Shown here one piece after another: positions 2,503-17,516 of a stretch of 21,610 nt of DNA. The position numbers were made by a program, and so were the translations under genes. The first letter of the stretch is position 1. Each line of letters begins with the position of its first letter. The notes below the pieces were generated by a model. It did no database searches, had not been told where the DNA came from, and saw nothing but the letters and a program-made list of their open reading frames with translations. This DNA comes from a virus, in the IMG/VR virus record IMGVR_UViG_3300045996_001312, positions 1 to 21,610 of that record; one strand, written 5' to 3'.

Positions 2503-4722
2503 GTGCCGGAAAACGTCCAGCCGCCGCAGATACAAGAAGTAGATCTCGACCAGGGGAAACTTGTCCTTTCGAATCATAAGATAAGCGAGGGGTATGCCCT
2601 TACTTACGCTCTCCGTACTTTCAACCAGATGGAGAACTACCGCTCGCTTAACCATGATCAAAGGTGGCGGGCGTTAAATGCGTTGTATTTGGGAGTGGTT
2701 CCGGCGAAGGTTTGGGATGGTACGAATATCCCGCGCGCCAACCTCTCGCGCAAAATCATCTTCGAGCAGGTCGAAAGCACCCTCCCAGCCGTCTGCCAGG
2801 CTATCTTCGGACAGCCCGAGTGGTTCCAGGTAGAACCCGAATCCAACGTCCCGATTGAGCAAGCGCGCTACGTCCGGGACGCGATGTCTTACTACCTCGA
2901 CCATTCGCGGAATAACCTCTCCTCCACCGCCCAAAACGAAATCTCCCTCGCCATTAAGTCGATGCTCCTCTTCGGCAACGGCGGCATCGGCATAGAGTGG
3001 GACTCTCTACAAAAGCGCCCCAACATCTTCTGGGTAGACATCAATGACATTTACATCGATCCAGGACTAACCACCTCGAACGTAGACGAAGGACGCGGCC
3101 TTGTCTGGCGGCGCTTCATGACCGTGGACGAACTCGCCGCGCTACGTGAAGACCCCCGGATGAACATTCCCTCGAATGACATCCTTTACTACCTCGCGAA
3201 CACCACCGTCAACACCGTCGGCGACCAGACCAAATCCGTGCAGGAAGCCGAACGCGGGGTCAACTACCAGCCGAACACCAGCGATTGGATGCCCGGACCT
3301 CAGGACCGCAAGGTAGAAGTCCTGTGCTACTACGACCGGAACCGCATCATCTGGATTCTGGGCCGGCAATGGGTGGCTTACAACCAGAAGAACGCCTACG
3401 AATTTATCCCGTTCTGTTTCGCGCCGTTTACCCCGATGCTGGGGCGGTTCTACGCGACCTCCTTAGCTGAAGTGAACGAGGACAACCAGCGCTACATCCA
3501 AGCTCTCCTAAACCTCCACCTCGACGAACTTACCCTCTCCCTGCAACCCCCGCGCACCATGCCCCGGAACGCGCGCATGACGCCGAACCAGATGCGGTGG
3601 AAGCCGGGGGCAATGTTCCCCGTGGACTCCAAGGATGATGTAAATATCCTCACCCCCGCCGGCGCTACCCAGAACGTCTTTACCGAAATCGCCTACATGG
3701 AGCAAGCCGCCGAAAAGACCACCGGCGTAAACTCCATGATGGCCGGAGCCGCACCCCGCCCGTCCAACGCAAACCGCACCGCAACCGGCGTCGGGTCTCA
3801 AATGCAGGGCGCGTCCGTCCGCCTTTCCCAAATCGTCTCCAACATCGAAACCTACATGCTAGTACCGCTCCTCTACAAGCTCTACCGCATGTTGCAAATG
3901 CACGTCCTCCCCTGGGAAAGTGTACCCGCCGTTTCCTCGGAGAACGACCAGAAATACCAAGTCTCCGGCCTGGTCTTCCGCAGCCCCATGCAGTTCAAGA
4001 TGAAGTCCGCGACCAAGCTCGTCACGCGGGAGCAACTCTCTCAAACCGTCCCGTTCTACCTCCAGACCCTCGTCAACGGCCCCGTAATGCAGGGCCTAGC
4101 CCAAGTTGGCAAGACCATCGATTGGGATGAACTCTCCCAGATGATTCAGGACGCTACCGGCACCGCCAAACTCTACAAAGTCGTCCGGAACCTCACCCCC
4201 GAAGAACAGCAGCAGATGCAGGCTGAGCAACAACAGCAAATGGAGGCCGAACAGCAGAAGGCCATGCAGGCGGATCAAACCCGGCTCCAAATCTCCTCGG
4301 AGAAGAACCAAACGGCAATCCAAACCGCGCTCATCGCGAAACAACCCGACCCGCCAAACCCCGCAGAGGAAGAGGCCCAGCGCGCCAAGGTCCAGAGCGA
4401 GATGATGCTCCAGCAAATCAAAGTCAGCGGTCAACGCGACCAGATGGAGATGAAGAAGCGCGAGGCCCAACAGAAACTCCAACTGAAACAAATGGAGATG
4501 CAGCAGAAGGCGCAGGAAGTCCAATTCAAGGGCGCTATCGACATGCAGCAGGCCCAGCAACAGGCGCAGTTCGACCAAGAGGCCATGCAGAACCAGTCCG
4601 CCATGCAGCGTGAACAAATGAACATGCAGATGGAAATGAGCCGGCATAAACAGAAACTCGCCATGCAGCAGCCGGCCCCCTCCGCCAAGCTCGACAAGTC
4701 CAAGCCAAAACCTAAGAAGTAA
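2503..4722 (+). CDS. Portal protein
   Basis: 739 residues, close to the P22 portal length (725), starting at GTG 2503. The portal is the ring at one capsid vertex through which DNA enters and leaves and onto which the tail is built. The call rests on the clip/stem-type sequence IKSMLLFGNGGIGIEWD at 151-167, the stretch DINDIYIDPG at 179-188, VDEGRGLVWRRFMTVDEL at about 194-211, and the position straight after the terminase. From about 560 to the end the protein becomes almost pure Gln, Met, Lys, Glu and Ala, and should form one long helix. In P22 the portal C-terminus forms a helical barrel, so this may be an equivalent. The stop overlaps the next start by one base (TAATG). Confidence 0.92.
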   Translation: MPENVQPPQIQEVDLDQGKLVLSNHKISEGYALTYALRTFNQMENYRSLNHDQRWRALNALYLGVVPAKVWDGTNIPRANLSRKIIFEQVESTLPAVCQAIFGQPEWFQVEPESNVPIEQARYVRDAMSYYLDHSRNNLSSTAQNEISLAIKSMLLFGNGGIGIEWDSLQKRPNIFWVDINDIYIDPGLTTSNVDEGRGLVWRRFMTVDELAALREDPRMNIPSNDILYYLANTTVNTVGDQTKSVQEAERGVNYQPNTSDWMPGPQDRKVEVLCYYDRNRIIWILGRQWVAYNQKNAYEFIPFCFAPFTPMLGRFYATSLAEVNEDNQRYIQALLNLHLDELTLSLQPPRTMPRNARMTPNQMRWKPGAMFPVDSKDDVNILTPAGATQNVFTEIAYMEQAAEKTTGVNSMMAGAAPRPSNANRTATGVGSQMQGASVRLSQIVSNIETYMLVPLLYKLYRMLQMHVLPWESVPAVSSENDQKYQVSGLVFRSPMQFKMKSATKLVTREQLSQTVPFYLQTLVNGPVMQGLAQVGKTIDWDELSQMIQDATGTAKLYKVVRNLTPEEQQQMQAEQQQQMEAEQQKAMQADQTRLQISSEKNQTAIQTALIAKQPDPPNPAEEEAQRAKVQSEMMLQQIKVSGQRDQMEMKKREAQQKLQLKQMEMQQKAQEVQFKGAIDMQQAQQQAQFDQEAMQNQSAMQREQMNMQMEMSRHKQKLAMQQPAPSAKLDKSKPKPKK

Positions 4723-6048: not shown

Positions 6049-7038
6049 ATGGCATACTCACCGGCAGGAAATTCTACTTCTTCCCCCGGCTTAGCGCACC
6101 TCCAAGCTATCTTTTACAACAAGACCGGCTTGGACGTTTTGCAGAAGAACTTCGTTTTCCGGAGCGCGACAGAAAAGGACAAACTGCCGTTGCGGTCTGG
6201 CCGAACTGCTCAATGGTTCCGGTATAACAATCTCTCTGCTGGCACGACCCCCGCAACCGAAGGCTCAGTTGGCACCTCCCTCCAGACGACCTCCAATGTC
6301 GTCGGAGCCACGGTTTCCCAGTACGCAAACTTCATCTCCGTTTCCGACTTCCTCATGGATACGGCGATTGACCCGATTGTTGAAAGCAACTCGGAGCGCC
6401 TGGGATATCGCGCCGGCCTTTCCGTGGATACGATTACCCGAAATGTAATCGACGCGGAATCCGGAGCGGCCCAGACCGCCCTCGCCACCTACCTCGGTGT
6501 TGACGACCTCCGCGCCGCCCGGACCAACCTGGCAGCCAACGATGTCATGCCGTTCGACGATGGGGAGTACTTCGCCGTCGCCCATCCTTTCGCCACGTTC
6601 GACCTCGTGAACGACCCTGCGGCTGGTGGACTGGCGGACATCTTCAAGTACACGACTCCGAAAGCGACCGCTCTTGTGTCTTACCCCACGCGGGGAACCA
6701 CGATGGCGTCCGTTGCCGGCTGCCGTGTGGTTGAGTCCACGAACACCTATCAAGGAACCGGCCCGAACACCTACCGTGTATATGTTTTCGGTAAGGGCGG
6801 AGTTGGTTCGTTGGATCTGGAAGGACGCGGCCCCTCGAACGTCACCGACCCGAACAAGCAGAAGTTCAAGATTTCTGTGATTCGGAATCAGGGCGGGAAT
6901 ATCGCCGATCCGGAAGGCATGATTGGCGCGGCTGTTGCGTATAACTTCAGCTTCGCTTCTGTGGTTCTCCAGGGTCCGGCAAGCATTCCTGGGCCGTATC
7001 GGTATCGTTACATCGACGTGCAGTCCACGCTTGGTTAA
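6049..7038 (+). CDS. Major capsid protein, N4-gp56 family
   Basis: 329 residues. It forms the HK97-fold icosahedral shell. Recognition comes from the family-typical N-terminal half: LQAIFYNKTGLDVLQKN at 18-34, LPLRSGRTAQWFRYNNL at 46-62, TPATEG at 67-72, and QYANFISVSD at 91-100 followed by a helix with ERLGYRAGLSVD. These correspond to the N-arm, E-loop/P-domain entry and spine-helix pattern of N4-gp56-like capsid proteins. The later part holds HPFATFDLVND, GCRVVEST and a C-terminal VAYNFSFASVVLQG strand. There is no N-terminal delta domain, which agrees with a separate scaffold gene. It follows a promoter-like element and its own leader, as expected for the most abundant virion protein. Confidence 0.92.
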   Translation: MAYSPAGNSTSSPGLAHLQAIFYNKTGLDVLQKNFVFRSATEKDKLPLRSGRTAQWFRYNNLSAGTTPATEGSVGTSLQTTSNVVGATVSQYANFISVSDFLMDTAIDPIVESNSERLGYRAGLSVDTITRNVIDAESGAAQTALATYLGVDDLRAARTNLAANDVMPFDDGEYFAVAHPFATFDLVNDPAAGGLADIFKYTTPKATALVSYPTRGTTMASVAGCRVVESTNTYQGTGPNTYRVYVFGKGGVGSLDLEGRGPSNVTDPNKQKFKISVIRNQGGNIADPEGMIGAAVAYNFSFASVVLQGPASIPGPYRYRYIDVQSTLG

Positions 7039-7544: not shown

Positions 7545-7573
7545 TTTTTCTTAGTCCGGGTAGTTGCGGTTTA

Positions 7574-7620
7574 GAAAATGGGTGGTATCCTTTAATCGGG
7601 ATATCGCCCATTTTCGTTTT
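7574..7620 (+). terminator. Rho-independent terminator after the head genes
   Basis: Arms 7574-7590 and 7599-7615 form a 17-bp stem (two G-U pairs, otherwise complementary) around the 8-base loop TTTAATCG. ATTTTC closes the stem and GTTTT follows at 7616-7620. The stem core GGGTGG/CGCCC is GC-richer than its ends. This is the clearest terminator in the window and separates capsid/decoration transcripts from the glycosyltransferase genes. Confidence 0.75.
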
Positions 7621-7632
7621 AGGACTAAGATT
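7620..7632 (+). promoter_or_regulatory. TAGGACTAAGANT start leader, copy before the glycosyltransferase
   Basis: The 13 bases TAGGACTAAGATT are identical to those at 5085-5097, but the codon that should be ATG (7633-7635) is AAG. The next in-frame codon, at 7636, is TTG, a possible start. The leader begins at the last T of the terminator tail. Confidence 0.5.
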
Positions 7633-7635
7633 AAG

Positions 7636-8760
7636 TTGCCTTTAAAGCCCGTCGCAATCCATTCATCCGCAACCCTTGAGCCGTGGGATTTTACAACACC
7701 TTGGACGCAGGGAATAGGTGGCAGTGAAAATTCGGCCGTAGAGATGGCCGAACGTCTCCGTATCTCCGGAGTAAAACTCGAATCCTACGCTCCAATAGAT
7801 TTGACAAAGCATGATCCCGATGCGCCGCTGTATTCCTCAAATTTAACTCCTTGGTTTCACCACACCGCGTATCGCCCTATTCCGGATGAGATTCTTATCA
7901 ATTATCGCAACCCCACTACGTTTGACACAGATAAACCAAACGGTGCGAAGTGGTGGTTTGTCGCGCAAGATGTCGATTACCCATGGGCTCCGGAGCAGTT
8001 AGAAAAAGTAGACCGTTACCTTTGTCTCTGCAAAGCCCACGCCGCGTACACCCTCCAGCGCTACCCCCAACTAAAAGGCCGCGTATTCATTAGCTCCAAC
8101 GGCGTGCGGTCAGAGGTGATTGCGGAGGTGGAGAAGGAAGGGCTAGTTCGCCAACCTTTCCGTATGTTCTACCCCTCTTCCCCCGACCGTGGACTAATGC
8201 TGGTTCTACAGAATTGGTTTCGGATTAAAGAGGCCGTCCCCCAAGCAGAACTGTACATCGGCTACGGGCTTAACAACGTAGACAAGATTATTCAGTTGAA
8301 TGGAAAAGGCGACTGGCGGTACACATTCAAGCAGGAGTTCGAGGATTTAGTACACCAAGACGGTATCTATTGGCTGGGCCGCCTCAATCAAATGGAGGTT
8401 TACAGGCAGTGGTTCCAAGCCTCCATCCATCCGTACCCAAATAGCTTTAAGGAAACGAACTGCATAACCGTCATGGAATCGCAGAGTTGCGGGGCGTTTC
8501 CTGTAACTAACAGCTTGTGGGCGGTGGGAGAATACGTCCAGTTTGGAACTAAGTTGACGGGAGTACCGCAGGAAACTACGTTGGGCTCGGCGCTTTGGGT
8601 GGGTGAGTGTATTCGTAGTCTACAGGAGGAAGTATTGGAGCCGACTAAGAGAAGTGGGGAGAGGGCTCATATGATGTCATGGGCTCGGAGTTCGTTTGAT
8701 TGGCAGAATGTGGTTTCCCAGTGGACTAACTGGATCAAGGAGGACTCATGCGAGAAATAA
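7636..8760 (+). CDS. Glycosyltransferase, GT4-like (GT-B fold)
   Basis: 374 residues from TTG 7636; ATT at 7630 is an alternative start. The frame is open further upstream (to TTG 7564), but that would run through the terminator hairpin. An N-terminal Rossmann half carries the GGSE loop at 28-31 (QGIGGSENSAVEMAERL), typical of retaining GT4-type enzymes. The C-terminal half has YPSSPDRGL at 179-187, AELYIGYG at 204-211 and the E-x7-E donor-site motif (Glu273 and Glu281 in FKETNCITVMES). The enzyme should move a sugar from a nucleotide-activated donor; the acceptor is unknown. Hand counts of three 60-base lines here give 45-50% GC, against 62-67% in lines from the portal and adaptor genes, which suggests later acquisition. 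The next gene overlaps its end. Confidence 0.85.
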   Translation: MPLKPVAIHSSATLEPWDFTTPWTQGIGGSENSAVEMAERLRISGVKLESYAPIDLTKHDPDAPLYSSNLTPWFHHTAYRPIPDEILINYRNPTTFDTDKPNGAKWWFVAQDVDYPWAPEQLEKVDRYLCLCKAHAAYTLQRYPQLKGRVFISSNGVRSEVIAEVEKEGLVRQPFRMFYPSSPDRGLMLVLQNWFRIKEAVPQAELYIGYGLNNVDKIIQLNGKGDWRYTFKQEFEDLVHQDGIYWLGRLNQMEVYRQWFQASIHPYPNSFKETNCITVMESQSCGAFPVTNSLWAVGEYVQFGTKLTGVPQETTLGSALWVGECIRSLQEEVLEPTKRSGERAHMMSWARSSFDWQNVVSQWTNWIKEDSCEK

Positions 8761-9440
8761 AACCAGCCGGAACGCTTTCCCGAATGTGGCAGGATGTGAT
8801 GTACTCCTCCTTCGCCGATTCCCTCGTTGAAACAGCGCTCTACACTACCTACTACCTACAGAACGTCGAGGATTTGTCTGGAGGAAAGAGCTACATCCAC
8901 TACGACAAGGCCACCGTCAGCTTCCACGAAATGGCGAGGAATTCCCTAGCCGAACGGATGCAGGGCGACTGGATATTCATGATGGACTGCGACCACCAGA
9001 CCGCACCAGATATCCTTGTCCGCCTCCTCCGATTACGGAAGAAGTACGGTTGTCGTGTCATCAGCGGTATCTACTTGTACAAACACCCACCACATTCCCC
9101 GGTGGCGAACTTCTTTAACGAGGAAGGCCGCGTTGTACCACTCGTAGATTGGGACCGGAGCGCCGAAATCATGGAGATTGGCTGCACCGGGGCAGGCTGT
9201 CTACTAATCGATAAAAGCGTTATTCGCGAGATATCCGAGAAATACGGCTGCGGTCCGTTTACACAGTTCCCCGGACTAAGCGAGGATTACAGCTTCTTCA
9301 AGCGGTGTAAGGAATTGGGTATTACCTGCCATCTCGCGCCGCAAGTCGAAGCGCACCACGTAATACGAACTCCTTTGTATGTAGACGGGTACCGCCCAGT
9401 CCGCGACGGACTAATCCAAACAACCGTAAAGGGCGGCTAA
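8748..9440 (+). CDS. Glycosyltransferase, GT2-like (GT-A fold)
   Basis: 230 residues, ATG at 8748 overlapping the previous gene by 13 bases. A canonical AAGGAGG at 8737-8743, inside that gene, serves as ribosome site. The DxD metal/nucleotide-sugar motif is Asp80-Cys-Asp82 in DWIFMMDCDH. Next come LVRLLRLRKKYGCRVISGIY (about 90-109), a CTGAGCLLID strand (146-155), and GLSEDYSFFKRCKELG at 176-191, where Glu179-Asp180 are the usual acceptor-site acids of GT2 enzymes. APQVEAHHV follows at 197-205, matching the C-terminal His region of many GT-A proteins. It lacks membrane segments, so it is likely a soluble enzyme. Translational coupling to the GT4-like gene suggests two sequential sugar additions. 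Possible targets are virion proteins or a host surface glycan. Confidence 0.82.
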   Translation: MREIKPAGTLSRMWQDVMYSSFADSLVETALYTTYYLQNVEDLSGGKSYIHYDKATVSFHEMARNSLAERMQGDWIFMMDCDHQTAPDILVRLLRLRKKYGCRVISGIYLYKHPPHSPVANFFNEEGRVVPLVDWDRSAEIMEIGCTGAGCLLIDKSVIREISEKYGCGPFTQFPGLSEDYSFFKRCKELGITCHLAPQVEAHHVIRTPLYVDGYRPVRDGLIQTTVKGG

Positions 9441-9489: not shown

Positions 9490-10671
9490 TTGTCGTCGCT
9501 GCATATTGGGAAACCATCGAACGCTAGTCAGATAACCTGGAGCGACGGCACGCCTTTTTCCGGGTATCTGGTCGTAGGTCTAGTAAACAGTTCCTACGAT
9601 GGAACTTGCTCCACCTCCTGGGGAAAAGCCACAGTCGGGCCGAATCGTAACTACACGCTCCCGCCGGGATTCGCGATGATCCCTATCGACCAAGGGAGAT
9701 TCAACGACTCCATCGGCGTCTACTACAACACCGACATAACCCCTCCTAATACCACCTACATCGCCTACTACTACGACGCGAACCGCAACCCCATTGCCGG
9801 CCCATCCTCCCCCTTCTCCGTAACCTCCGATACGTTTACACCGCCGGCGCTTACTCTCCTAACCCCAGCGGACAGTGCGGCGGCCCCAGTACCGGACAAC
9901 GAAGCCGGCACAGACCAATTCTTCGGTGTAGTCACCCCGTGGGCATGGAATGAAGTACCCGCCGGAACAAAAGACGGTGTAAACACAGCGTTCACCTTGG
10001 CGGAAACTCCCGCCCCAGCCGCGTCCCTGCACGTCCTCTTCAACGGCTCCGACCTTACACAAGGCGTGGACTACACTCTCTCCGGCACCGCTCTAACAAT
10101 GGTGTCGCCGTACATCCCGACCTCCACCGACACATTCTGGACGTTCTATGCGTATGGAACCTCCGTCCCCGCTTTCTCCGAAACCTTAATGAAGTGGAAC
10201 GAAACTCCAGCCGGCCTGATGAACGGCTCCAACCAAGTATTCGTTCTCTCCGAAAATCCTTACCCCACCTCATCCCTAATCCTCATCTTCAACGGCTCCA
10301 CGTTGCGGCAGGGCGTTGACTACGTTCTGCTCGACAACATCATCAATCTCCTCACCTTCATTCCTGCCTCGGGCGATACCTTAGTCGCCTCCTTCCTCTA
10401 CAGCCGTTGCTTTACCCGCCGTGGTGGAGTCGCTACTTGGGCGTTTGACGAAATCCCGAGCGGCACCAAAAACTCCTCCAACACGGTATTTACGTTAGCC
10501 AACACGCCGGACCCGCCGGCTTCCCTCATGCTGCGGTTTAACGGGTCCACGCTAACCCAAGGGGTACACTACAACCTCTACGGCGCAATCATCGTCTTTA
10601 ACGCGCCCTTTATCCCCGCGCCGTCGGACAACATCACGGCGGATTACCAGTACTTCGTTTACACGCCATGA
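9490..10671 (+). CDS. Repeat-containing virion protein, probable fibre or baseplate-like component
   Basis: 393 residues from TTG 9490, six bases after AGAGGG. Residues 1-135 form a beta-rich domain (ITWSDGTPFSGYLVVGLV; PNTTYIAYYYDANRNPI), like the fibronectin-like or substituent-binding modules at the start of phage tail or head fibre proteins. From about 151 to 391 there are three copies of an 83-residue repeat. Each reads roughly E-x-P-x-G, then N-x-x-F-x-L, P-x-x-S-L, FNGS, QGVDY, and a closing strand pair. Such E-P-G/NG-N/DY repeats are common in phage structural proteins that display surface-exposed beta modules. The stop overlaps the next start (ATGA). A tail fibre, head fibre or adhesin are all possible; the exact position in the virion is not shown by the sequence. 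Confidence 0.65.
   Translation: MSSLHIGKPSNASQITWSDGTPFSGYLVVGLVNSSYDGTCSTSWGKATVGPNRNYTLPPGFAMIPIDQGRFNDSIGVYYNTDITPPNTTYIAYYYDANRNPIAGPSSPFSVTSDTFTPPALTLLTPADSAAAPVPDNEAGTDQFFGVVTPWAWNEVPAGTKDGVNTAFTLAETPAPAASLHVLFNGSDLTQGVDYTLSGTALTMVSPYIPTSTDTFWTFYAYGTSVPAFSETLMKWNETPAGLMNGSNQVFVLSENPYPTSSLILIFNGSTLRQGVDYVLLDNIINLLTFIPASGDTLVASFLYSRCFTRRGGVATWAFDEIPSGTKNSSNTVFTLANTPDPPASLMLRFNGSTLTQGVHYNLYGAIIVFNAPFIPAPSDNITADYQYFVYTP
9940..10662 (+). repeat. Three tandem 83-codon repeats within the fibre-like gene
   Basis: Landmark residues recur at exact 83-residue steps: Glu155/238/321, Pro157/240/323, Gly159/242/325, Asn165/248/331, Asn185/268/351 (FNG) and Tyr195/278/361 (GVDY or GVHY). The DNA period is 249 bases with no length change between units, although the sequences have diverged. 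Confidence 0.9.
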
Positions 10672-10904
10672 TTACGCTCTCCTCGAAACAAATCGTAGTA
10701 ATCGGCGGCCTGCTGGTGGGGAACCTTGTAACCTCCGCTATGACTCTCGGCGGTTATAAATCGGAATTCGAGCAGTTGAAAACTCAGGTGACTGAGGACC
10801 GGGGTGCGAGAACCGCGCTTCGGGAGGAGGTGATTAACCTGCGGGTTGAAATCGCCAACCTGCGAGCGGATGTAAAGATCTTGTCGGAGAAGACTAAGAA
10901 GTGA
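10668..10904 (+). CDS. Single-pass membrane protein with coiled coil, spanin-like topology
   Basis: 78 residues, ATG overlapping the previous stop (ATGA). One hydrophobic helix at about 9-27 (IVVIGGLLVGNLVTSAMTL) is followed from about 33 to 75 by heptad-like charged sequence (FEQLKTQV, LREEVINLRVEIANLRADV), a convincing coiled coil. This N-terminal anchor plus coiled-coil layout is that of inner-membrane spanins and of several small lysis or membrane-linked virion accessory proteins. No partner lipoprotein overlaps it and no lysin is adjacent, so the spanin reading is tentative. An alternative is a membrane-anchored assembly factor. The last codons hold AGACTAAGAA, a near copy of the start leader, in front of the next gene's GTG. 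Confidence 0.7.
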   Translation: MITLSSKQIVVIGGLLVGNLVTSAMTLGGYKSEFEQLKTQVTEDRGARTALREEVINLRVEIANLRADVKILSEKTKK

Positions 10905-11581
10905 ATAAGAATCTAGGAATTATCGACAGCGAGAAAGCGCCCCTTCTGGCGGCGGGAGACAGCACGCGCAAGGGCAATGCGGATCTTGATACCTTGCAGA
11001 AGCAGAATGTGGAATCCCTCGCGCCGTGGCTTTTGGACGAGCGGAATGTCACCAATGCCGAGTACCAACTTGGCAAAGGGATGCAGTCGGATTTGTTCGT
11101 TAAGCGGCTGAAGAAACTTAACCCCTCTCTGGAGTTCTTCGTCTACCCGCTGAACCGCACCAAACAAGCCTGCGCGATTAAGGAACAAGACGGACACTAC
11201 CGTTTCATCATCACCATGGAGAACGGCTTCACTCCTGAAAGAAGCATCATGGAGCGGCGCGTGGAGTTGATCGACGATTTCTCGGGCACTCCGGGCAATC
11301 CTGTTGTAGAACGCTCCGACGTAATGAAACAAGCCCACTGGGTTCCTTCTAATAACGCATTCGGCGGCAGTTGGGCGTTTGAGGATAAGACCAAGGGCCT
11401 GGGATGGAAGGCTGTTGAAATCCCCGGTAAGGAAATCACTCGCGGATGGCGCACCGTCCTCCTCCGCCTAATCGAAAGCGGCTACCTCACCGTGACCGCT
11501 GTGGAAAAGGAATTCGGAGCAGACGACACCGCCGCGTGGCAAGGACATACAGGAAAGGCGCTAGTAACGACGCCTTGGTAA
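10901..11581 (+). CDS. Phage protein of unknown function with RGWR-type C-terminus
   Basis: 226 residues from GTG 10901, overlapping the previous stop (GTGA). I do not recognise a named family. What can be seen: an N-terminal DSEKAPLLAAGD, then WLLDERNVTNAEYQLGKGM (about 48-66), a basic helix SDLFVKRLKKLNP, and a beta-rich middle (LEFFVYPL, HYRFIITMENGF, ERSIMERRVELID). A C-terminal unit, RGWRTVLLRLIESGYLTV, follows with a possible helix-turn-helix feel, ending AAWQGHTGKALVTTPW. There is no signal peptide, catalytic triad or lysin motif. The gene belongs to the structural block between fibre-like and adaptor-like proteins, so a virion or assembly role is likely by position only. The coding call is strong because of length, coupling and neighbours. 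Confidence 0.75.
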   Translation: MNKNLGIIDSEKAPLLAAGDSTRKGNADLDTLQKQNVESLAPWLLDERNVTNAEYQLGKGMQSDLFVKRLKKLNPSLEFFVYPLNRTKQACAIKEQDGHYRFIITMENGFTPERSIMERRVELIDDFSGTPGNPVVERSDVMKQAHWVPSNNAFGGSWAFEDKTKGLGWKAVEIPGKEITRGWRTVLLRLIESGYLTVTAVEKEFGADDTAAWQGHTGKALVTTPW

Positions 11582-11591
11582 GTTAGTAATC

Positions 11592-11612
11592 ACTAAGACT
11601 AGGACTAAGAAT
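11592..11612 (+). promoter_or_regulatory. TAGGACTAAGANT start leader with a partial upstream duplicate
   Basis: TAGGACTAAGAAT (11600-11612) abuts the ATG at 11613. A second ACTAAGA lies 12 bases earlier (11592-11598 against 11604-11610). The 31 bases between the genes consist almost entirely of this repeat. Confidence 0.55.
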
Positions 11613-12008
11613 ATGGCTAAGGATACGAAAGATTTGAACGTTTTACAGTCTCCGATGGCGGATACCTCCACCGAAGACCTCGACCGGGAACTAAAACTCC
11701 TCGAACTTGAGGAGAAGCGGGAAGCGCGCGGAAAGAAGCTCGCGAAAGAAGCCCAGCGTAAAGCCGCCGGCGTCTCGATTCGGGCGAATTACGTTAGGGA
11801 ACAGGACAGAACGAAAGCGGAACAGGCTGTCTGTATCCACCAGAAACCCAACGGCGCGTCTGCCTTTTGCGGCCAGCGCGACCACTCGGGAAGAATCCAC
11901 CTCATCTGCCAGACATGCTCGATGGAATGGCACGAGGGCATCTCCCCCAACTTCGCTTTCCGCCGCCCCGATCCCAATATCATCGGCGGCCCGCTGCAAT
12001 CCGTCTAA
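11613..12008 (+). CDS. Small protein with coiled coil and Cys/His-rich (zinc-ribbon-like) domain
   Basis: 131 residues, ATG at 11613 behind TAGGACTAAGAAT. Residues about 20-50 (EDLDRELKLLELEEKREARG onward) are highly charged and helical. Residues 74-107 hold Cys74, His76, Cys86, His91, His96, Cys99, Cys102 and His107; the pair C-Q-T-C at 99-102 plus Cys74 or Cys86 and a nearby His could bind one zinc ion. The surrounding CGQRDHSGRIHLICQTC and MEWHEG resemble a small treble-clef or ribbon fold, but no named family was recognised. It precedes the adaptor-like pair. A structural or assembly role in the virion is inferred from context; DNA binding is another possibility. Confidence 0.7.
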   Translation: MAKDTKDLNVLQSPMADTSTEDLDRELKLLELEEKREARGKKLAKEAQRKAAGVSIRANYVREQDRTKAEQAVCIHQKPNGASAFCGQRDHSGRIHLICQTCSMEWHEGISPNFAFRRPDPNIIGGPLQSV

Positions 12009-12017
12009 GGTACTTCC

Positions 12018-12722
12018 GTGGCTACATCCACATACACTCCGAATGATGCTGCTGTCTGGGCGAAGTCTTTTATCAAGGCTATGCCCTTGGAGAACATCAA
12101 TCCGTTACTCCTGGACACCGTGTACCAGCGTATGTGGATGGCTGCGGACTGGAGTTGGACGTTGGGGAATATCCCGGCGTTTACTGTAGTTCAGAATAAA
12201 ACGGATTATGAAATCGCGCGGCCAGGGGATTTCCTTTACATCGTCCAGGCGAAGATTGTTACCAGTAATAACTCGGATAGAGATCTTATCGTAGACCCGC
12301 GCACCGAAGACTCCGTTATCCAAGCGGGGCAGGCTAGCAGAATCTCGGCAATGACGGAAGGCGACACGCAGTTCTACCGCCTCTCTCCCGTTCCCACACA
12401 GCAAGTCGCGGCCCCGCAAGCCCCAAAAGTAATCGGGCTGTACAAAAAGCAGGGCGTAAAGATCACCGCCGATAACTACGAAACCGCCATCCTGGTCTTC
12501 CCGGACGCCTGGTTCTACGTCTACTGCCTCGGGGTCCTCGCCTACGCCTACACATGGGCCGATGACGAGCGCGGCGGGTCTGCTTCCATCGGCTCCGACG
12601 GGCGCTACCAATTCTCGGGCAAGATGGCGGAGTTCGAAATGGGGCTGGAACTAATGAAGAAATCCGAACCGCTCCCGACCACGCCCAGCAAAACAGTCCA
12701 AGACACGAAGAAGGAGCGGTAA
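12018..12722 (+). CDS. Head-tail adaptor/tail-tube-like protein, first paralogue
   Basis: 234 residues from GTG 12018, with TAAGG at 12006-12010 as ribosome site. It is clearly related to the next gene: both start with an MA..TYT..DA pattern, share RMWMAADW (38-45) against RKMWMAFDW, then NIPAF (51-55) against NLPPF, then a P-x-DF strand, a central FRLSP/FRLFP-type strand, and a C-terminal TA......IL.F.D..F...YC stretch ending in FSGKMAE or FTGQLAK. Short-tailed phages place adaptor or gatekeeper proteins of 200-250 residues (T7 gp11-like, P22 gp4-like) before the nozzle gene, and these fit by size and order. The ADW.W segment after an N-terminal helix resembles those proteins, but the match is by eye. 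The stop overlaps the next ATG (TAATG). Confidence 0.65.
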   Translation: MATSTYTPNDAAVWAKSFIKAMPLENINPLLLDTVYQRMWMAADWSWTLGNIPAFTVVQNKTDYEIARPGDFLYIVQAKIVTSNNSDRDLIVDPRTEDSVIQAGQASRISAMTEGDTQFYRLSPVPTQQVAAPQAPKVIGLYKKQGVKITADNYETAILVFPDAWFYVYCLGVLAYAYTWADDERGGSASIGSDGRYQFSGKMAEFEMGLELMKKSEPLPTTPSKTVQDTKKER

Positions 12723-13486
12723 TGGCGCGCACATACACTCACGGCGACGCGATGGATATGATTCGGCGGCACGTTACCACGTCCAATGAAGACAGCTACG
12801 CGGCGGAGATCTGCAACGCGGCGGATAGGAAAATGTGGATGGCGTTCGACTGGCGCGAGAGTATCGCCAATCTGCCGCCGTTTTACCTAGTCCCGCTGGA
12901 GCAAGACCACGGTTTCCCCGCCGTTGCCGTACCCAAAGACTTCTGGGGCCTGCGCACCGCCTACCTTCTCCAATTCACAGCCAACCCCACGCCCCAAGTG
13001 TGGCCGCTTTCCTGCATCCGCGACCTCCAGGAAACCGACGTTATCTCGATGCCTACGTCCATCGGGTATAACGAGTCTAACAACAGCTTCCGCCTTTTCC
13101 CCCGCGTGCCAAAGAACATCGGCGCTCCCGAGTGGCTGGTAAACGGCACCTACAAAATCCGCTTACCCAAACTCACCGCCGGCACCTTCGCAGGCACCAT
13201 CCTCCCCTTCGCCGACGACTACTTCATGAACTACTGCGAAGTTCTGAAATGGGCGGCTTTCGAGTACTCTGGCGACTCTCGAGCCGGCGGAGTTCAGGCC
13301 CAAAAGAATGGCGGCGTAGTCTTCACCGGCCAGCTTGCCAAAGCCTACGAAGCGACCGTGGAAATGGCTATGAACGAGGGTCTGGAACTCGGCGACCCGG
13401 TAATCGCCCCTGAAGAGCCCCTTGCCTCTCCTAGCTCTCTAACCGGCAACTGGTGGGGAGGCTACTTTGGACAATCAGGCTCCTAA
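12722..13486 (+). CDS. Head-tail adaptor/tail-tube-like protein, second paralogue
   Basis: 254 residues, ATG at 12722 with AAGGAG at 12711-12716. It pairs with the preceding gene by shared motifs (RKMWMAFDW at 36-44, NLPPF at 50-54, VPKDFWGL, CIRDLQETDVISM, SFRLFPRVP, then a TAGTFAGTILPFADDYF segment). It is longer at the C-terminus, where LASPSSLTGNWWGGYFGQSGS forms a Gly/Trp tail of unknown role. Tandem paralogues at this place could make two stacked rings between portal and nozzle, or a heteromeric ring. The final 20 bases overlap the start of the next small gene. Confidence is high that it is a real gene and a paralogue of its neighbour; the adaptor role is an inference from size and order. 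Confidence 0.65.
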   Translation: MARTYTHGDAMDMIRRHVTTSNEDSYAAEICNAADRKMWMAFDWRESIANLPPFYLVPLEQDHGFPAVAVPKDFWGLRTAYLLQFTANPTPQVWPLSCIRDLQETDVISMPTSIGYNESNNSFRLFPRVPKNIGAPEWLVNGTYKIRLPKLTAGTFAGTILPFADDYFMNYCEVLKWAAFEYSGDSRAGGVQAQKNGGVVFTGQLAKAYEATVEMAMNEGLELGDPVIAPEEPLASPSSLTGNWWGGYFGQSGS

Positions 13487-13631
13487 GCGCGTCCCCCGCC
13501 CCATGTTCGACTTAGGCGGCGGTAAGAAGAAATACCCTACTGTTTCTAAGTCCCCGAAAGACGAAGTTAAAGAAAAGAAACCACTTAGGCAACGGATGCC
13601 CCCCGATGTAATAAAATGGGAAGAGAGTTAG
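13467..13631 (+). CDS. Tiny basic protein, first of two
   Basis: 54 residues from TTG 13467, five bases after GGGGAGG (13455-13461), ending at TAG 13629-13631. It overlaps the previous gene by 20 bases in another frame. An ATG at 13503 is an alternative shorter start but lacks a ribosome site of its own. The sequence is strongly basic and probably disordered: PRPMFDLGGGKKKYP, then a Lys/Glu-rich stretch and PLRQRMPPDVIKWEES. RP....LGG.KK recurs in the next tiny protein. Function unknown; small basic proteins in this position could be minor virion or ejected DNA-binding proteins. The good ribosome site and exact fit between neighbours support it as a gene. Confidence 0.5.
   Translation: MDNQAPKRVPRPMFDLGGGKKKYPTVSKSPKDEVKEKKPLRQRMPPDVIKWEES
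13602..13620 (+). promoter_or_regulatory. Promoter-like AT core (boundary element 4), inside the end of a small gene
   Basis: CCCGAT and ATGGG can pair with one bulged G around GTAATAAA; TAAAAT lies at 13612-13617. A purine stretch GGGAAGAGAG follows, as in the other boundary elements. It lies 16 bases before the ATG at 13636, within the coding sequence of the 54-residue protein. This is the weakest of the five copies. Confidence 0.3.
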
Positions 13632-13635
13632 TAAT

Positions 13636-13815
13636 ATGCAGCTAAAAGAGTTAGGGAGTAAGTTAGGAAAAACGGCGGCGGCGATTGGGGAAGCAGTGTC
13701 CCCGATGGCCAGCACGCGCCCGAATCCTTTAGGCGGCATGAAGAAAGACAAGAAGCCGGGGAAGTTAGCAGATATCTGGAAGAAAAAGCCCGCTTCTATG
13801 TTGGAGGACTGCTAA
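13636..13815 (+). CDS. Tiny basic protein, second of two
   Basis: 59 residues, ATG at 13636, TAA at 13813-13815 immediately followed by the next ATG. AAGAGAG (13621-13627) may serve as ribosome site. The N-terminus (MQLKELGSKLGKTAAAIGEA) could form an amphipathic helix. Then comes STRPNPLGGMKKDKKPGK, which shares RP....LGG.KK with the preceding tiny protein, and a basic IWKKKP stretch near the end. Charge is strongly positive. Function unknown; an internal virion or nucleic-acid contacting peptide is plausible. Position exactly between two genes with no spare bases supports it as real. Confidence 0.6.
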   Translation: MQLKELGSKLGKTAAAIGEAVSPMASTRPNPLGGMKKDKKPGKLADIWKKKPASMLEDC

Positions 13816-14469
13816 ATGGCGTCTCTCGCGGATCAACTTTATTTCCAACGTTACGGTACTGCGCCGCTGCAAGGCTTGTCGGGACTCCCCGGCGCAAACG
13901 ACCCTTTTATCGCCTCTGCCCTAATTACCCCCTACGCCCAGCGGTCTAAAGAGCAGCACAACGCGATTAACTCAGCGAACGTGACGGCCAGCGGGGTGAA
14001 GGCTCCACAGTACCAATCCGCGCAGACCCAACAGCAATGGGGTCAGCCTCAACAGCCCCAAGGCCCGATGGTCAACATCAGTAAGAACACTGGTGGAACG
14101 CAGGACGCTTGGTACGCCCGCGCAGGATCGCCGGGTATCGCGCAGCCCCAGAATCAAACTCCCCCTCGCGGCACCCCCAACTACGGCTACCAACCGCCGC
14201 GCTCAGCCGGACAGTCTCCTTGGGGCGGGCAGTATGGCATGTCGGGAATGTCTGGCGGAATGGGCAACTTCTTCGGTGGGATGGGGAACTTCTCCTCCCC
14301 GATGTCTGGCATGGGTGGCTTCCCCCAACAGCGCCAGCAAAGCGCGCCGGGTGGAACTCCTGGCAGCATGAACACCACCCCGACGCCACAGAGAACCCGC
14401 CCCCCGGCCCTCTCGCAGAACTTCAACAACATGTTGTATTTCCCGATGGCGAAGCAGCAGTACTACTAA
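13816..14469 (+). CDS. Gln/Pro/Gly-rich low-complexity virion-block protein
   Basis: 217 residues, ATG directly after the previous stop, with GGAGG at 13803-13807. The first 50 residues look ordered (LADQLYFQRYGTAPL, ANDPFIASALITPYAQRS). From about 65 on it is Gln-, Pro- and Asn-rich, then Gly/Met/Phe-rich (GMSGMSGGMGNFFGGMGNF near 141-159), ending with an ordered-looking NNMLYFPMAKQQYY. No enzymatic motif is visible. Such composition suggests a flexible virion protein; the aromatic/Gly part might self-associate. The family was not recognised. Other-frame open stretches across this gene are shadows, because this frame alone joins both neighbours cleanly and carries the ribosome site. Confidence 0.7.
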   Translation: MASLADQLYFQRYGTAPLQGLSGLPGANDPFIASALITPYAQRSKEQHNAINSANVTASGVKAPQYQSAQTQQQWGQPQQPQGPMVNISKNTGGTQDAWYARAGSPGIAQPQNQTPPRGTPNYGYQPPRSAGQSPWGGQYGMSGMSGGMGNFFGGMGNFSSPMSGMGGFPQQRQQSAPGGTPGSMNTTPTPQRTRPPALSQNFNNMLYFPMAKQQYY

Positions 14470-14473
14470 AAAT

Positions 14474-14493
14474 TAGGACTTAGGACTAAGACT
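14474..14493 (+). promoter_or_regulatory. TAGGACTAAGANT start leader with a duplicated TAGGACT heptamer
   Basis: TAGGACT at 14474-14480 is followed at once by TAGGACTAAGACT (14481-14493), which abuts the ATG at 14494. The 24-base gap between the two low-complexity genes is almost wholly made of this element. Confidence 0.55.
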
Positions 14494-15198
14494 ATGGCTC
14501 CAGCACGTACTTTCGGCGCTCCCTCAGGCAACGCGACATATGGACGCGGAGGCGGGGCTTTCCAGAACCCCGGCGACCCGTCACAAGGCGGTCCTAACTA
14601 CGTAGACGCACGCACTCCCGGTATGGGTGGCATGGGTGGGTATGGTCAAGCGGGCATGTCTTTTGCGGGCGGCGGAGGAGGTCTTATGCCTCCTTCTGGC
14701 GGCGGGGGAATGATCCAGGGCGGCGCGCCTTCCTTCCAGAACTTGGGAGCCGGCGGAATGGGCGGCACGGAACAGGGCGGTATGTCCAACGTCCAGTCCC
14801 TTCTCTCACGTACACCTTGGGGGATCTCCCCGTGGACCGGGAACACCCAAATGACCGGGCGCGATAACTCCTCCTTCCGTGAAGGCGGCAGTTCGGACGG
14901 CAGCGGGCAAGGAATGTGGGGCGCGGGGTTTAACTTCCTCAAGAACCACCCCCTGGCGGCAATGCTGTTCGGCGGCGGCCCTATGGGTATGGGGCAGTTA
15001 CAGGCAATGGGCGTTCCGATGGCCGGTCCCCGTCAACCTTCGCCGCAAATGGGCGCGGGTGGAGTTGGCCGTCAAAGCATTCCCATGCAGTCTTTGGAAG
15101 GCGGGCAGGGCGGCGGTGGCGGAGATGCCCTAAGTATGCTCCTCCAAGGCATGGGCCAAATGCCGGGTAACTTCTACGGGCGGACACGTGGAAGGTAA
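14494..15198 (+). CDS. Gly/Met-rich low-complexity virion-block protein
   Basis: 234 residues, ATG at 14494 behind the duplicated leader. About a third is Gly, with many Met, Gln and Ser: GMGGMGGYGQAGMSFAGGGG near 43-62 and GGGGMIQGGAP soon after. A middle section, SNVQSLLSRTPWGISPW (about 98-114), and NFLKNHPLAAMLFGGGPMGM (about 147-166) look more ordered; the latter could be a short membrane-active or amphipathic helix. The end is MLLQGMGQMPGNFYGRTRGR. I do not recognise a family. It resembles its neighbour in composition and may be a diverged relative or a partner. It is placed just before the nozzle-like gene, so it is probably a tail or ejected virion protein. Confidence 0.68.
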   Translation: MAPARTFGAPSGNATYGRGGGAFQNPGDPSQGGPNYVDARTPGMGGMGGYGQAGMSFAGGGGGLMPPSGGGGMIQGGAPSFQNLGAGGMGGTEQGGMSNVQSLLSRTPWGISPWTGNTQMTGRDNSSFREGGSSDGSGQGMWGAGFNFLKNHPLAAMLFGGGPMGMGQLQAMGVPMAGPRQPSPQMGAGGVGRQSIPMQSLEGGQGGGGGDALSMLLQGMGQMPGNFYGRTRGR

Positions 15199-15200
15199 CC

Positions 15201-17516
15201 GTGGCGATTGCCTCGAAATTTGACTCCCTACAGTTTGAAAAATTAGAGCTACCGTTCGACAAGATCGAATCGGAACTCTCCCCAACTCCGCGCATCGTCG
15301 AGGGGTTGAATACTTACGTTACGACAGGCGGTTCTCTGGCGCGGCGGCCCGGTACCTCTGGGATGACGAATGGGCTTTTCGCGGCGGGGTATCGGTGTGA
15401 CCGTTTATGGCTTTACCAAACCCTAGACAATCCACCGAAACTCTACCTCATCGCGTCGATGCACAACTTCAACACCGGCTTCTGGGAGTTGTGGTATCAG
15501 CGTTTGTCGTCCTCCCCCGGTACGTGGACGATCTTCCCTTCCCTCCGCTCGATTAACTCCTCCGAACGGGCGCATGAAGGCGTTCCGGCGCGGGGGAAAT
15601 TCTACGCCAAGGGGTACCCGAATATCTCCACTACGGAGACTTTAGGGACGGTGCAGTTTGATGGATCACCGGGTACGCCAGCGGTTCGTGTTTGGGGAGC
15701 ACTAGGTCCGACGACCCCGGCGCGAATTCGTGGGGCGATTACCTACTCCACGGCATCGATTAACGACTCGACTACCGCGCTGACTGTCTCCCCGGCGGCG
15801 GCTCCTGCGGGCTTTCCTGCGGCTCCATTTACCGCGCAGTTGGATTTCGAGCAGGTTACGGTAACGTCAATCGGCGGCGGCACTAACTGGACGATTGTGC
15901 GCGCGCAGAACGGGACTACCGCAGCCGCCCACGCAAACGGGACGCTTGTACTCTGGCGGAATTGGACTGCATCAGCGCATCAAGTTACCGTTAACCTCTT
16001 CTGGCGCTACTCCTACTGTTACAAAACTGTTACAGGACAGTACACCAATCGTGCGCCAGAAGAAACAAACCCCGATCTTCTACCCAATTCCACGGGCGCA
16101 TTTAAAGACCTCTGCCCGGAAATCACCGTCCAGGGTCACGCGGATACTACTAACTTCCCGACTATCTCGATTCTGCGTACCTGCGACGGCGGGGGTACGT
16201 ACTTCCTTCTCGAAGAAATCACCAACACTGGCGCGGGCAATATCACCTACCGCGACGACAGCCTTGGTTCCGGCGCGTCGGGGCTTACGCAAAACGACCC
16301 CATCCCGGATGTCGTTCTCAACACCTTCTCGCTAACCCCGAACCTCACCTCCAATTCCCCGCCCCCGTCCGTCATCGCGCCGGAAGTAGTCGGCGTTAAC
16401 CAAATCGCGCCCAGCACCCCGTGCGTCTACTACGCCTCCCGAATCTGGTACGGCATCGGTAACATCGTCTTCTACTCCTCCAATGAGGAATTACCCATTG
16501 GCGTCCCGGAAGAGTCCTTCCCCTCGGGGCTAACCGGGAATTTCTACCGCTTCCAGGACCCGGTTACGAACCTCGTAGACACGGGCGATGCGCTTTTCAT
16601 CATGACTCTGAAAGGCGCGTATATCATCACCGGCACTACGAAGGACACCTTCAACCTGCGCCCGATCTACGACCAGATGGGGCATCCGTACAATAACTCC
16701 CGCGCGGTTGTCCGCTACAAGAACTCCATCGCCTTCCTAACCAACGACTACAAAGTAGCAACCATCATCGAGTCCAACGAACCGGAGTTCATTTCGGACC
16801 CCCTGGAAAGCGACCTAGTAGACGACATCGTTGACGGCGCGGAAGTAGACATGAAGTACTGGGCCGATCTCGACAAGGAATGGCTGGTCATGTTCTCCCA
16901 CCGGAAGGACGACACCTCCCTTTCCCGCCAGCGCATGTACAACACCAAGCTGGCGAAGAATCACAACAAACCGTTCTGGGCCACGCCTTGGGATATCCCA
17001 ACAACTGCTGCCGTTGCGGGGCGCGCTTCAGAAGACACTTCGCAGACGAAGCTAATCATGGCGCTATTCGACAATGACACGAACACAACGCGCTTTGTGG
17101 AACTCGACCTCGCCACCTTCACGGACGACGCGCCGGCTGGGGAACGCGGGTACGGATACCACTTCACCACACACCTACAACAAAACCCGGCGGGCAATCA
17201 CCTGAATAACCTCGCCGTGGACAGCCAAGTTAGCGATCTAAATAACATGATCCTGGAGCGGAAGGTGTTCGACGATGAGGAAGACCCCGAGTTAGTCTAC
17301 TACCTAGACGACACGTGGACGGACCCTATTACTCCGCCCGCCGCCAACGGTCCACCCCGCCGCGAGCAATCCAAGGGCTACAAAACCCTCTACTTCCAGG
17401 TAAACACCGTCTGTAACCGGGCCGCAGTAACCGTCTCCTCCCCCGACGACCAGGATAACGTCCCGGCGCAGATTGAGACTCTTACTTGGGTGTTCCAGCC
17501 AGGCGGAGGGGCCTAG
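15201..17516 (+). CDS. Tail nozzle/hub-like protein
   Basis: 771 residues from GTG 15201, with GGAAGG at 15190-15195 as ribosome site. The N-terminus has IVEGLNTYVTTGGSLARRPGTS (around 32-53), the pattern of T7 gp12-type nozzle and P22 gp10-type hub proteins, where a conserved N-G and RPG(T) mark follows an early strand. The rest is beta-rich with propeller-like strands: LWLYQT near 70, YYASRIWYGIGNIVFYSSNEE around 408-430, GDALFIMTLKGAYIITGTT at about 462-480, and NSIAFLTNDYKVATI. These proteins close the short tail and open for DNA exit. Position after two adaptor-like proteins and before fibre genes agrees. Length is close to T7 gp12 (794). The assignment is by pattern and order, with moderate to good confidence. 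Confidence 0.75.
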   Translation: MAIASKFDSLQFEKLELPFDKIESELSPTPRIVEGLNTYVTTGGSLARRPGTSGMTNGLFAAGYRCDRLWLYQTLDNPPKLYLIASMHNFNTGFWELWYQRLSSSPGTWTIFPSLRSINSSERAHEGVPARGKFYAKGYPNISTTETLGTVQFDGSPGTPAVRVWGALGPTTPARIRGAITYSTASINDSTTALTVSPAAAPAGFPAAPFTAQLDFEQVTVTSIGGGTNWTIVRAQNGTTAAAHANGTLVLWRNWTASAHQVTVNLFWRYSYCYKTVTGQYTNRAPEETNPDLLPNSTGAFKDLCPEITVQGHADTTNFPTISILRTCDGGGTYFLLEEITNTGAGNITYRDDSLGSGASGLTQNDPIPDVVLNTFSLTPNLTSNSPPPSVIAPEVVGVNQIAPSTPCVYYASRIWYGIGNIVFYSSNEELPIGVPEESFPSGLTGNFYRFQDPVTNLVDTGDALFIMTLKGAYIITGTTKDTFNLRPIYDQMGHPYNNSRAVVRYKNSIAFLTNDYKVATIIESNEPEFISDPLESDLVDDIVDGAEVDMKYWADLDKEWLVMFSHRKDDTSLSRQRMYNTKLAKNHNKPFWATPWDIPTTAAVAGRASEDTSQTKLIMALFDNDTNTTRFVELDLATFTDDAPAGERGYGYHFTTHLQQNPAGNHLNNLAVDSQVSDLNNMILERKVFDDEEDPELVYYLDDTWTDPITPPAANGPPRREQSKGYKTLYFQVNTVCNRAAVTVSSPDDQDNVPAQIETLTWVFQPGGGA

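Follow-up and report, generated by a model that had tools for sequence, protein, structure and literature searches.

In phage SU10, one adaptor protein forms one 12-mer, in which the C-terminal embracing loop passes between the portal clips and the helix bundle contacts the platform of the nozzle (PMC9509320). The nozzle of SU10 is hexameric, the long fibres are also borne by the adaptor helix bundle, and adjacent subunits of the one ring differ in the conformation of the embracing loop and dock loop (PMC9509320). The T7 adaptor gp11 comprises a helix bundle, a dock domain and a C-terminal segment directed towards the portal, with the C-terminal embracing helix surrounding the portal stem; here, too, one adaptor protein builds one 12-fold ring (PMC6702177). 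Phage PhicrAss001 (crAss001) possesses four paralogous ring proteins, R1–R4 (gp43, gp40, gp35 and gp34), which form five stacked dodecamers spanning about 23 nm, and, according to its authors, other podoviruses had been observed with a single such ring of one protein only (PMC10172136). The statement in a preliminary description of the present locus that short-tailed phages generally use one adaptor is, hence, to be read with crassviruses as the published exception. No other podophage with two adaptors or stacked rings was found among the top-ranked papers in literature searches of an open-access collection with few subscription papers.

The window analysed here, 21,610 bases in length, is a whole virus record and probably a fragment. 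Its gene content is that of a tailed-phage structural module, with terminase (phrog_38), portal and capsid protein genes followed by the neck and tail region; from the families of these three proteins, the phage can be inferred to be short-tailed. The genes for the portal protein (2503-4722; SU10_portal family, PF23899, E 1.3e-27) and the major capsid protein (6049-7038; N4-gp56 family) are oriented in the forward direction, as are the conserved neighbours, adaptor genes and candidate nozzle gene described below. Two glycosyltransferase-like genes (7564-8757 and 8748-9437, under the Pfam cut-offs) are located between the capsid and neck genes. The 393-aa protein encoded at 9490-10668 contains three repeats of about 83 aa each, spaced 249 nt apart in the gene; its match to CBM_X2 is weak and under the cut-off, and the matching ORFs of relatives encode 127-308 aa. 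A conserved gene for a 226-aa protein (10901-11581) lies upstream of the adaptors in many loci with one or two adaptor genes, and is followed by a conserved gene for a 131-aa protein (11613-12008) in which a zinc-ribbon-like CxxH/CxxC motif was noticed by eye.

The next two genes encode the adaptor paralogues Ad1 (12018-12722, GTG start, 234 aa) and Ad2 (12722-13486, ATG start, 254 aa). The stop codon of the former and the start codon of the latter have one base in common within the sequence TAATG (12720-12724, forward strand), where translational coupling from Ad1 to Ad2 is possible. The gene at 15201-17516 encodes a 771-aa candidate nozzle protein, so named for its position, size and conservation in the clade. 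None of the 14 members of its family has a Pfam match, and a 14-row profile found one PDB match at E ≤ 1, a weak one to a phage GP4 protein (8jov_A, E 0.022); the assignment as nozzle and proposed docking partner of Ad1 is, accordingly, a weak one.

The preliminary description held that the two genes are homologous from end to end and arose by duplication, and this was borne out. BLASTP aligned Ad1 and Ad2 collinearly with 65.5 bits (E = 2e-17 in a single comparison) and 63 of 246 positions identical (26%), and the motif pairs that had been listed are present in the translations (RMWMAADW/RKMWMAFDW, NIPAF/NLPPF, FYRLSP/FRLFP, ILVFPDAWF/ILPFADDYF and FSGKMAE/FTGQLAK). A search of the window record with protein P0001 returned two matches, itself and P0002. 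The family profiles of Ad1 and Ad2 align over 219 columns with E = 6e-38, ruling out that they share no homology beyond chance.

The adaptor-like nature of the pair stood on different grounds for each protein. Ad1 scores 31.1 bits against the Pfam family SU10_adaptor (PF24175), which includes SU10 gp11 and has a curated cut-off of 27 bits, and so belongs to it by sequence. Ad2 has no match to any Pfam family at E ≤ 1 and was therefore not filed in PF24175; it is called an adaptor by its homology to Ad1, its predicted fold and the SU10_adaptor matches of members of its alignment. At E ≤ 0.01, this family was matched by 18 of the 24 members of the Ad1 alignment (A7, 19 Ad1 and 5 adaptors from relatives with a single adaptor gene) and by 10 of the 24 members of the Ad2 alignment (A8, 19 Ad2 and 5 single adaptors). 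No PHROGs or NCBIfam family was found for Ad1 or Ad2, and one of the 24 A8 members matched phrog_7578 (E 0.0097). When A7 and A8 were searched against PDB sequences, no adaptor was found. There was no T7 chain among PDB sequence matches at E ≤ 10. Towards the profile comparison with known adaptors that had been suggested, the family profiles were aligned by hhalign to single SU10-like, Pf-WMP4, HTVC033P and phiM6 adaptors, with non-significant results.

AlphaFold2 models built from the 24-row alignments were confident for both proteins (pLDDT 89.2 for Ad1 and 86.8 for Ad2) apart from the C-terminal tails, which are disordered in the monomer models (pLDDT under 50 for Ad2 residues 224-250). In each model, a beta domain is flanked by two helices on its N-terminal side and two on its C-terminal side, so that both proteins are predicted to carry the helix bundle and beta dock domain of solved adaptors. 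Structure comparison, as well as Foldseek, aligned most of the length of each model with chains from solved portal-tail complexes of podophages; these chains were taken to be adaptors from their length and fold, because most entry titles name no chain. The best match for both was Cyanophage A4 9k09_d (Ad1, Z 13.0, 5.4 Å over 190; Ad2, Z 12.9, 4.6 Å over 198), and the Z values for Ad1 and Ad2 were, respectively, 11.8 and 11.2 with VP1, 11.7 and 11.1 with Pa223, 11.4 and 11.8 with GP4 and 9.3 and 9.5 with N4. The SU10 tail chains gave Z 11.0 for both (4.8 Å over 181 for Ad1 and 4.0 Å over 194 for Ad2). As for the likeness to T7 gp11 and P22 gp4, predicted structure upheld the T7 part for Ad1 (Z 8.6 with the T7 tail entry and 8.2 with 7box, titled T7 adaptor gp11) and less clearly for Ad2 (7.5 and 7.0), given that a Z under 8, marked with caution by the tool, may reflect merely a common arrangement. 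P22 gp4 was absent among the structure matches listed, which excludes nothing.

The matches to crAss001 were lower than those to the single-adaptor podophages: chain 7qog_B gave Z 8.2 with Ad1 (4.9 Å over 179) and 8.0 with Ad2 (6.0 Å over 187), and chain 7qoj_D 7.7 and 7.4, the entry titles naming the protein of neither chain. Like crAss001, the window phage has paralogous ring-type proteins with a predicted adaptor fold in one podovirus genome, but two such genes in place of the three or four of crassviruses. Unlike crAss001, it combines an SU10-type portal with a capsid protein of the N4-gp56 type, and it enters the comparison through predicted models. It differs from SU10 and T7 in having two adaptor genes.

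A search with a three-sequence profile revealed 11 viral loci, eight of which (L019-L026) contain orthologues of Ad1 and Ad2 with conserved gene order; two more end within the Ad1 frame (L028 and L029) and one has one adaptor (L027). Relatives were then sampled via the capsid protein, because picking by adaptor was to be avoided. Among the 58 loci so obtained (57 and the window), 20 contain Ad1 and Ad2, 18 have one adaptor, two end inside Ad1 and 18 have no adaptor ORF; these are counts of loci, not of independent phages, and include near-copies (e.g., L031/L035 and L033/L034). Whole-record searches were repeated for five of these 18 loci lacking an adaptor ORF: L056 contains a 55-residue Ad1 piece at the record end, and no adaptor was found in L030, L041, L042 and L045. 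In L045, the expected adaptor position downstream of the zinc-ribbon gene is occupied by two large genes (11268-16534) for unrelated-looking, apparently secreted proteins of 950 and 805 aa, and no adaptor is reached before the end of the contig.

Two adaptor matches (E ≤ 1) were found in all 14 pair records searched, which represent part of the 19 pair loci besides the window and may be fragments, and one adaptor gene in all 16 single records searched of the 18 single loci; in five of these 16, the gene gives two pieces inside one insert-bearing frame. With start codons of the relatives' genes chosen by script, the distance from the Ad1 stop to the Ad2 start is between -8 and +14 nt in 17 of the 20 pair loci. 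In the other three (L031, L036 and L053), 0.7-1.0 kb of other sequence separates the genes; in L020, which is on the same contig as L031, phosphoglycerate-mutase-like and HNH-like ORFs were seen there by eye. The single adaptors are 241-249 aa long in 11 of 16 cases and 365-420 aa in five (L065, L066, L070, L074 and L086). The extra residues of the L074 adaptor (P0003) sit in the beta domain, and the insert of the long single adaptors is possibly a fibre-docking module.

Searches of 50,697 phage records by tblastn with Ad1, Ad2 and P0003 gave no match at E ≤ 0.01 and, thus, no isolate. Viral contigs scanned with the single sequences of Ad1, Ad2 and the portal gave no hits. The scans of genome contigs with the profile A1 and the capsid profile A4 were also empty, and therefore no host is proposed.

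A tree of 54 adaptors places Ad1 (19/19 rows), Ad2 (19/19) and the single adaptors (16/16) each on its own side of a supported branch, with support values of 100/99, 100/98 and 100/96, respectively. L050, a near-copy of L048, and L080 and L084, copies of L081, were left out of the trees, and the L065 adaptor with its aberrant long tail was retained. The divergence of the two copies therefore predates that of the sampled pair phages, and, judging by these sequences, the duplication is old and has been kept across the phage lineage. Four phage pairs provided eight dN/dS comparisons, three of them saturated and one (Ad1 of L048/L050) without an amino-acid change; the remaining four gave 0.14 and 0.07 for Ad1 and 0.09 and 0.05 for Ad2, indicating purifying selection and that both copies are being kept. 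A recent redundant duplicate or an annotation artefact is hardly compatible with this selection, with the two old groups and with the presence of the pair in 20 of 58 loci; no observation in favour of either was found, and we regard both as extremely improbable.

The single adaptors are nearly equidistant from Ad1 (hhalign E 3e-47) and Ad2 (6e-47) and nearer to each than the paralogues are to one another (6e-38), which suits a duplication after the split of pair and single phages. It suits, without proving, a gain of the pair after this split rather than a loss in the single clade. In the capsid-protein tree, the single loci form one side of a branch (98/88), while the pair state needs two changes because Tunturiibacter phage Tunturi_3 falls between the pair and single loci; the outgroup rows, two in number and both very long, do not group.

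Tunturi_3 (PP885686), a cultured podovirus according to electron microscopy (PMC11924767), also carries a tandem paralogous adaptor-like pair, gp12 and gp13, annotated as 'structural protein' and 'tail protein'. The two are homologous (E 7e-8; profiles, E 6.5e-18) and larger than Ad1 and Ad2. Against SU10_adaptor, gp13 is borderline (27 bits in the genome search, 26.7 against the cut-off of 27 in hmmscan), and gp12 has no match in hmmscan. A search of the 50,697 phage records with gp13 found itself only, but among 44 loci (43 relatives and Tunturi_3), gp13 occurs in 36 at over 200 bits, the other eight ending 0-673 nt after the gp12 frame. A five-group tree, in which gp12 and gp13 were thinned to nine rows each from 28 and 25 distinct rows, unites the two on one side of a branch (100/99), and the Tunturi pair therefore looks like an independent duplication, which is likely, although not proven. 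A duplication shared with the window lineage, with gp12 corresponding to Ad2 and gp13 to Ad1, is what the hhalign values point to (gp13-Ad1, E 3e-13; gp12-Ad2, 3.5e-6, vs. gp12-Ad1, 3e-4). It was disfavoured by AU tests, with marginal p-values for groups named after the hhalign result (gp12+Ad2, p 0.034; gp13+Ad1, p 0.037).

The two copies differ in which part of the single adaptor they resemble. Column similarity to the single adaptors favours Ad1 in the helix bundle (+0.55 BLOSUM units, 101 columns) and Ad2 in the tail (-1.56, 18 columns), with little difference between them in the beta domain (-0.13, 110 columns). Mann-Whitney p-values, which are exploratory, uncorrected and derived from non-independent alignment columns, were 0.0014 for bundle vs. 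tail, 0.023 for bundle vs. beta and 0.020 for beta vs. tail. The median tail length is 28 residues in single adaptors, 31 in Ad2 and 17 in Ad1. By a composition rule fixed after the tails had been seen, and with truncated proteins (four gp12 and one gp13) omitted, the last 12 residues are aromatic and Gly/Pro-rich in 13 of 16 single adaptors, 16 of 19 Ad2 and 24 of 24 Tunturi gp12, and in 4 of 19 Ad1 and 7 of 24 gp13. Hence, in both lineages one copy (Ad2, gp12) has a tail like that of the single adaptors and the other (Ad1, gp13) a polar one.

Assuming that the single adaptors resemble the ancestor, these features may be explained by the tandem duplication of one adaptor gene in this lineage, after which the products, each keeping the predicted helix bundle and beta 'dock' domain, would have divided its jobs. 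The retained Ad2 tail (residues 220-254; 13379-13483, forward strand), a counterpart of the single-adaptor tail, is the proposed portal-embracing segment. It would grip the portal, the proposed docking partner, and Ad2 should therefore sit directly under it as the first ring. Ad1, which has a short polar tail and keeps the most single-adaptor-like helix bundle, the part that bears the nozzle in SU10, is expected to build a second ring that separates Ad2 from the nozzle. Conservation of the bundle is not nozzle-specific, because the SU10 bundle carries long fibres too. A two-ring neck in the order portal, Ad2, Ad1 and nozzle, with both proteins present in virions, is the reading that we consider the probable one, with reservations.

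The preliminary description had considered two stacked rings or a mixed ring with broken symmetry. In a mixed ring as envisaged here, Ad1 and Ad2 would alternate 6+6 in one dodecamer and adapt the 12-fold portal to the 6-fold nozzle via dedicated subunits. Such a ring is conceivable since neighbouring SU10 adaptors already differ in the conformation of the dock and embracing loops (PMC9509320), and the adjacent or overlapping position of the genes in most pair loci (17/20) would suit equal dosage. However, it leaves just six portal-gripping tails and gives no reason for Ad1 to lose its tail while retaining the bundle, and the paralogous ring proteins of crAss001 stack (PMC10172136). Stacking is favoured because of the tail and bundle pattern and this precedent, and a mixed ring appears unlikely. 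A change of role, by which one paralogue would form the neck ring and the other would have become a fibre dock, an assembly factor or a head-completion plug, could account for an Ad1/Ad2 identity down to about 26%, and the beta domain of relatives does take inserts, as seen in five of the 16 single adaptors (365-420 aa). The pair proteins of the 19 aligned phages, on the other hand, show no domain-sized gain or loss (221-240 aa and 217-254 aa), and each predicted fold matches adaptor chains along most of the protein, which makes such a change rather improbable.

Under the two-ring reading, the simplest arrangement by analogy would be the same in both lineages: the copy with the tail, Ad2 or gp12, would contact the portal, and Ad1 or gp13 would be intercalated between that copy and the nozzle. 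Going by the ring spacing of crAss001, such an additional ring would lengthen the neck by roughly 4-5 nm. The wider proposition that a two-ring neck evolved through adaptor duplication at least twice outside crassviruses, each time with the same split between portal tail and nozzle bundle, is tentative, and we put it slightly short of an even chance. If true, multi-ring barrels would be a repeated route to longer short tails and not a crassvirus peculiarity, and the pairs would offer a clean case of a symmetric ring protein splitting its two interfaces after duplication. In any case, two further phage lineages with doubled adaptor genes are added to crassviruses, and the window lineage offers a built-in comparison with single-adaptor relatives of similar gene order.

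The same prediction applies to Tunturi_3, an isolate whose host, Tunturiibacter psychrotolerans X5P2, is in culture: it would have two rings, with gp12-type subunits at the portal and gp13-type subunits at the nozzle. Its gp13 also weakly matches gp19, annotated as 'head decoration protein' (38 bits). A 'DG..W' type module was noticed by eye (L003) in the beta region of gp12 and gp13, and may be the part shared with gp19.
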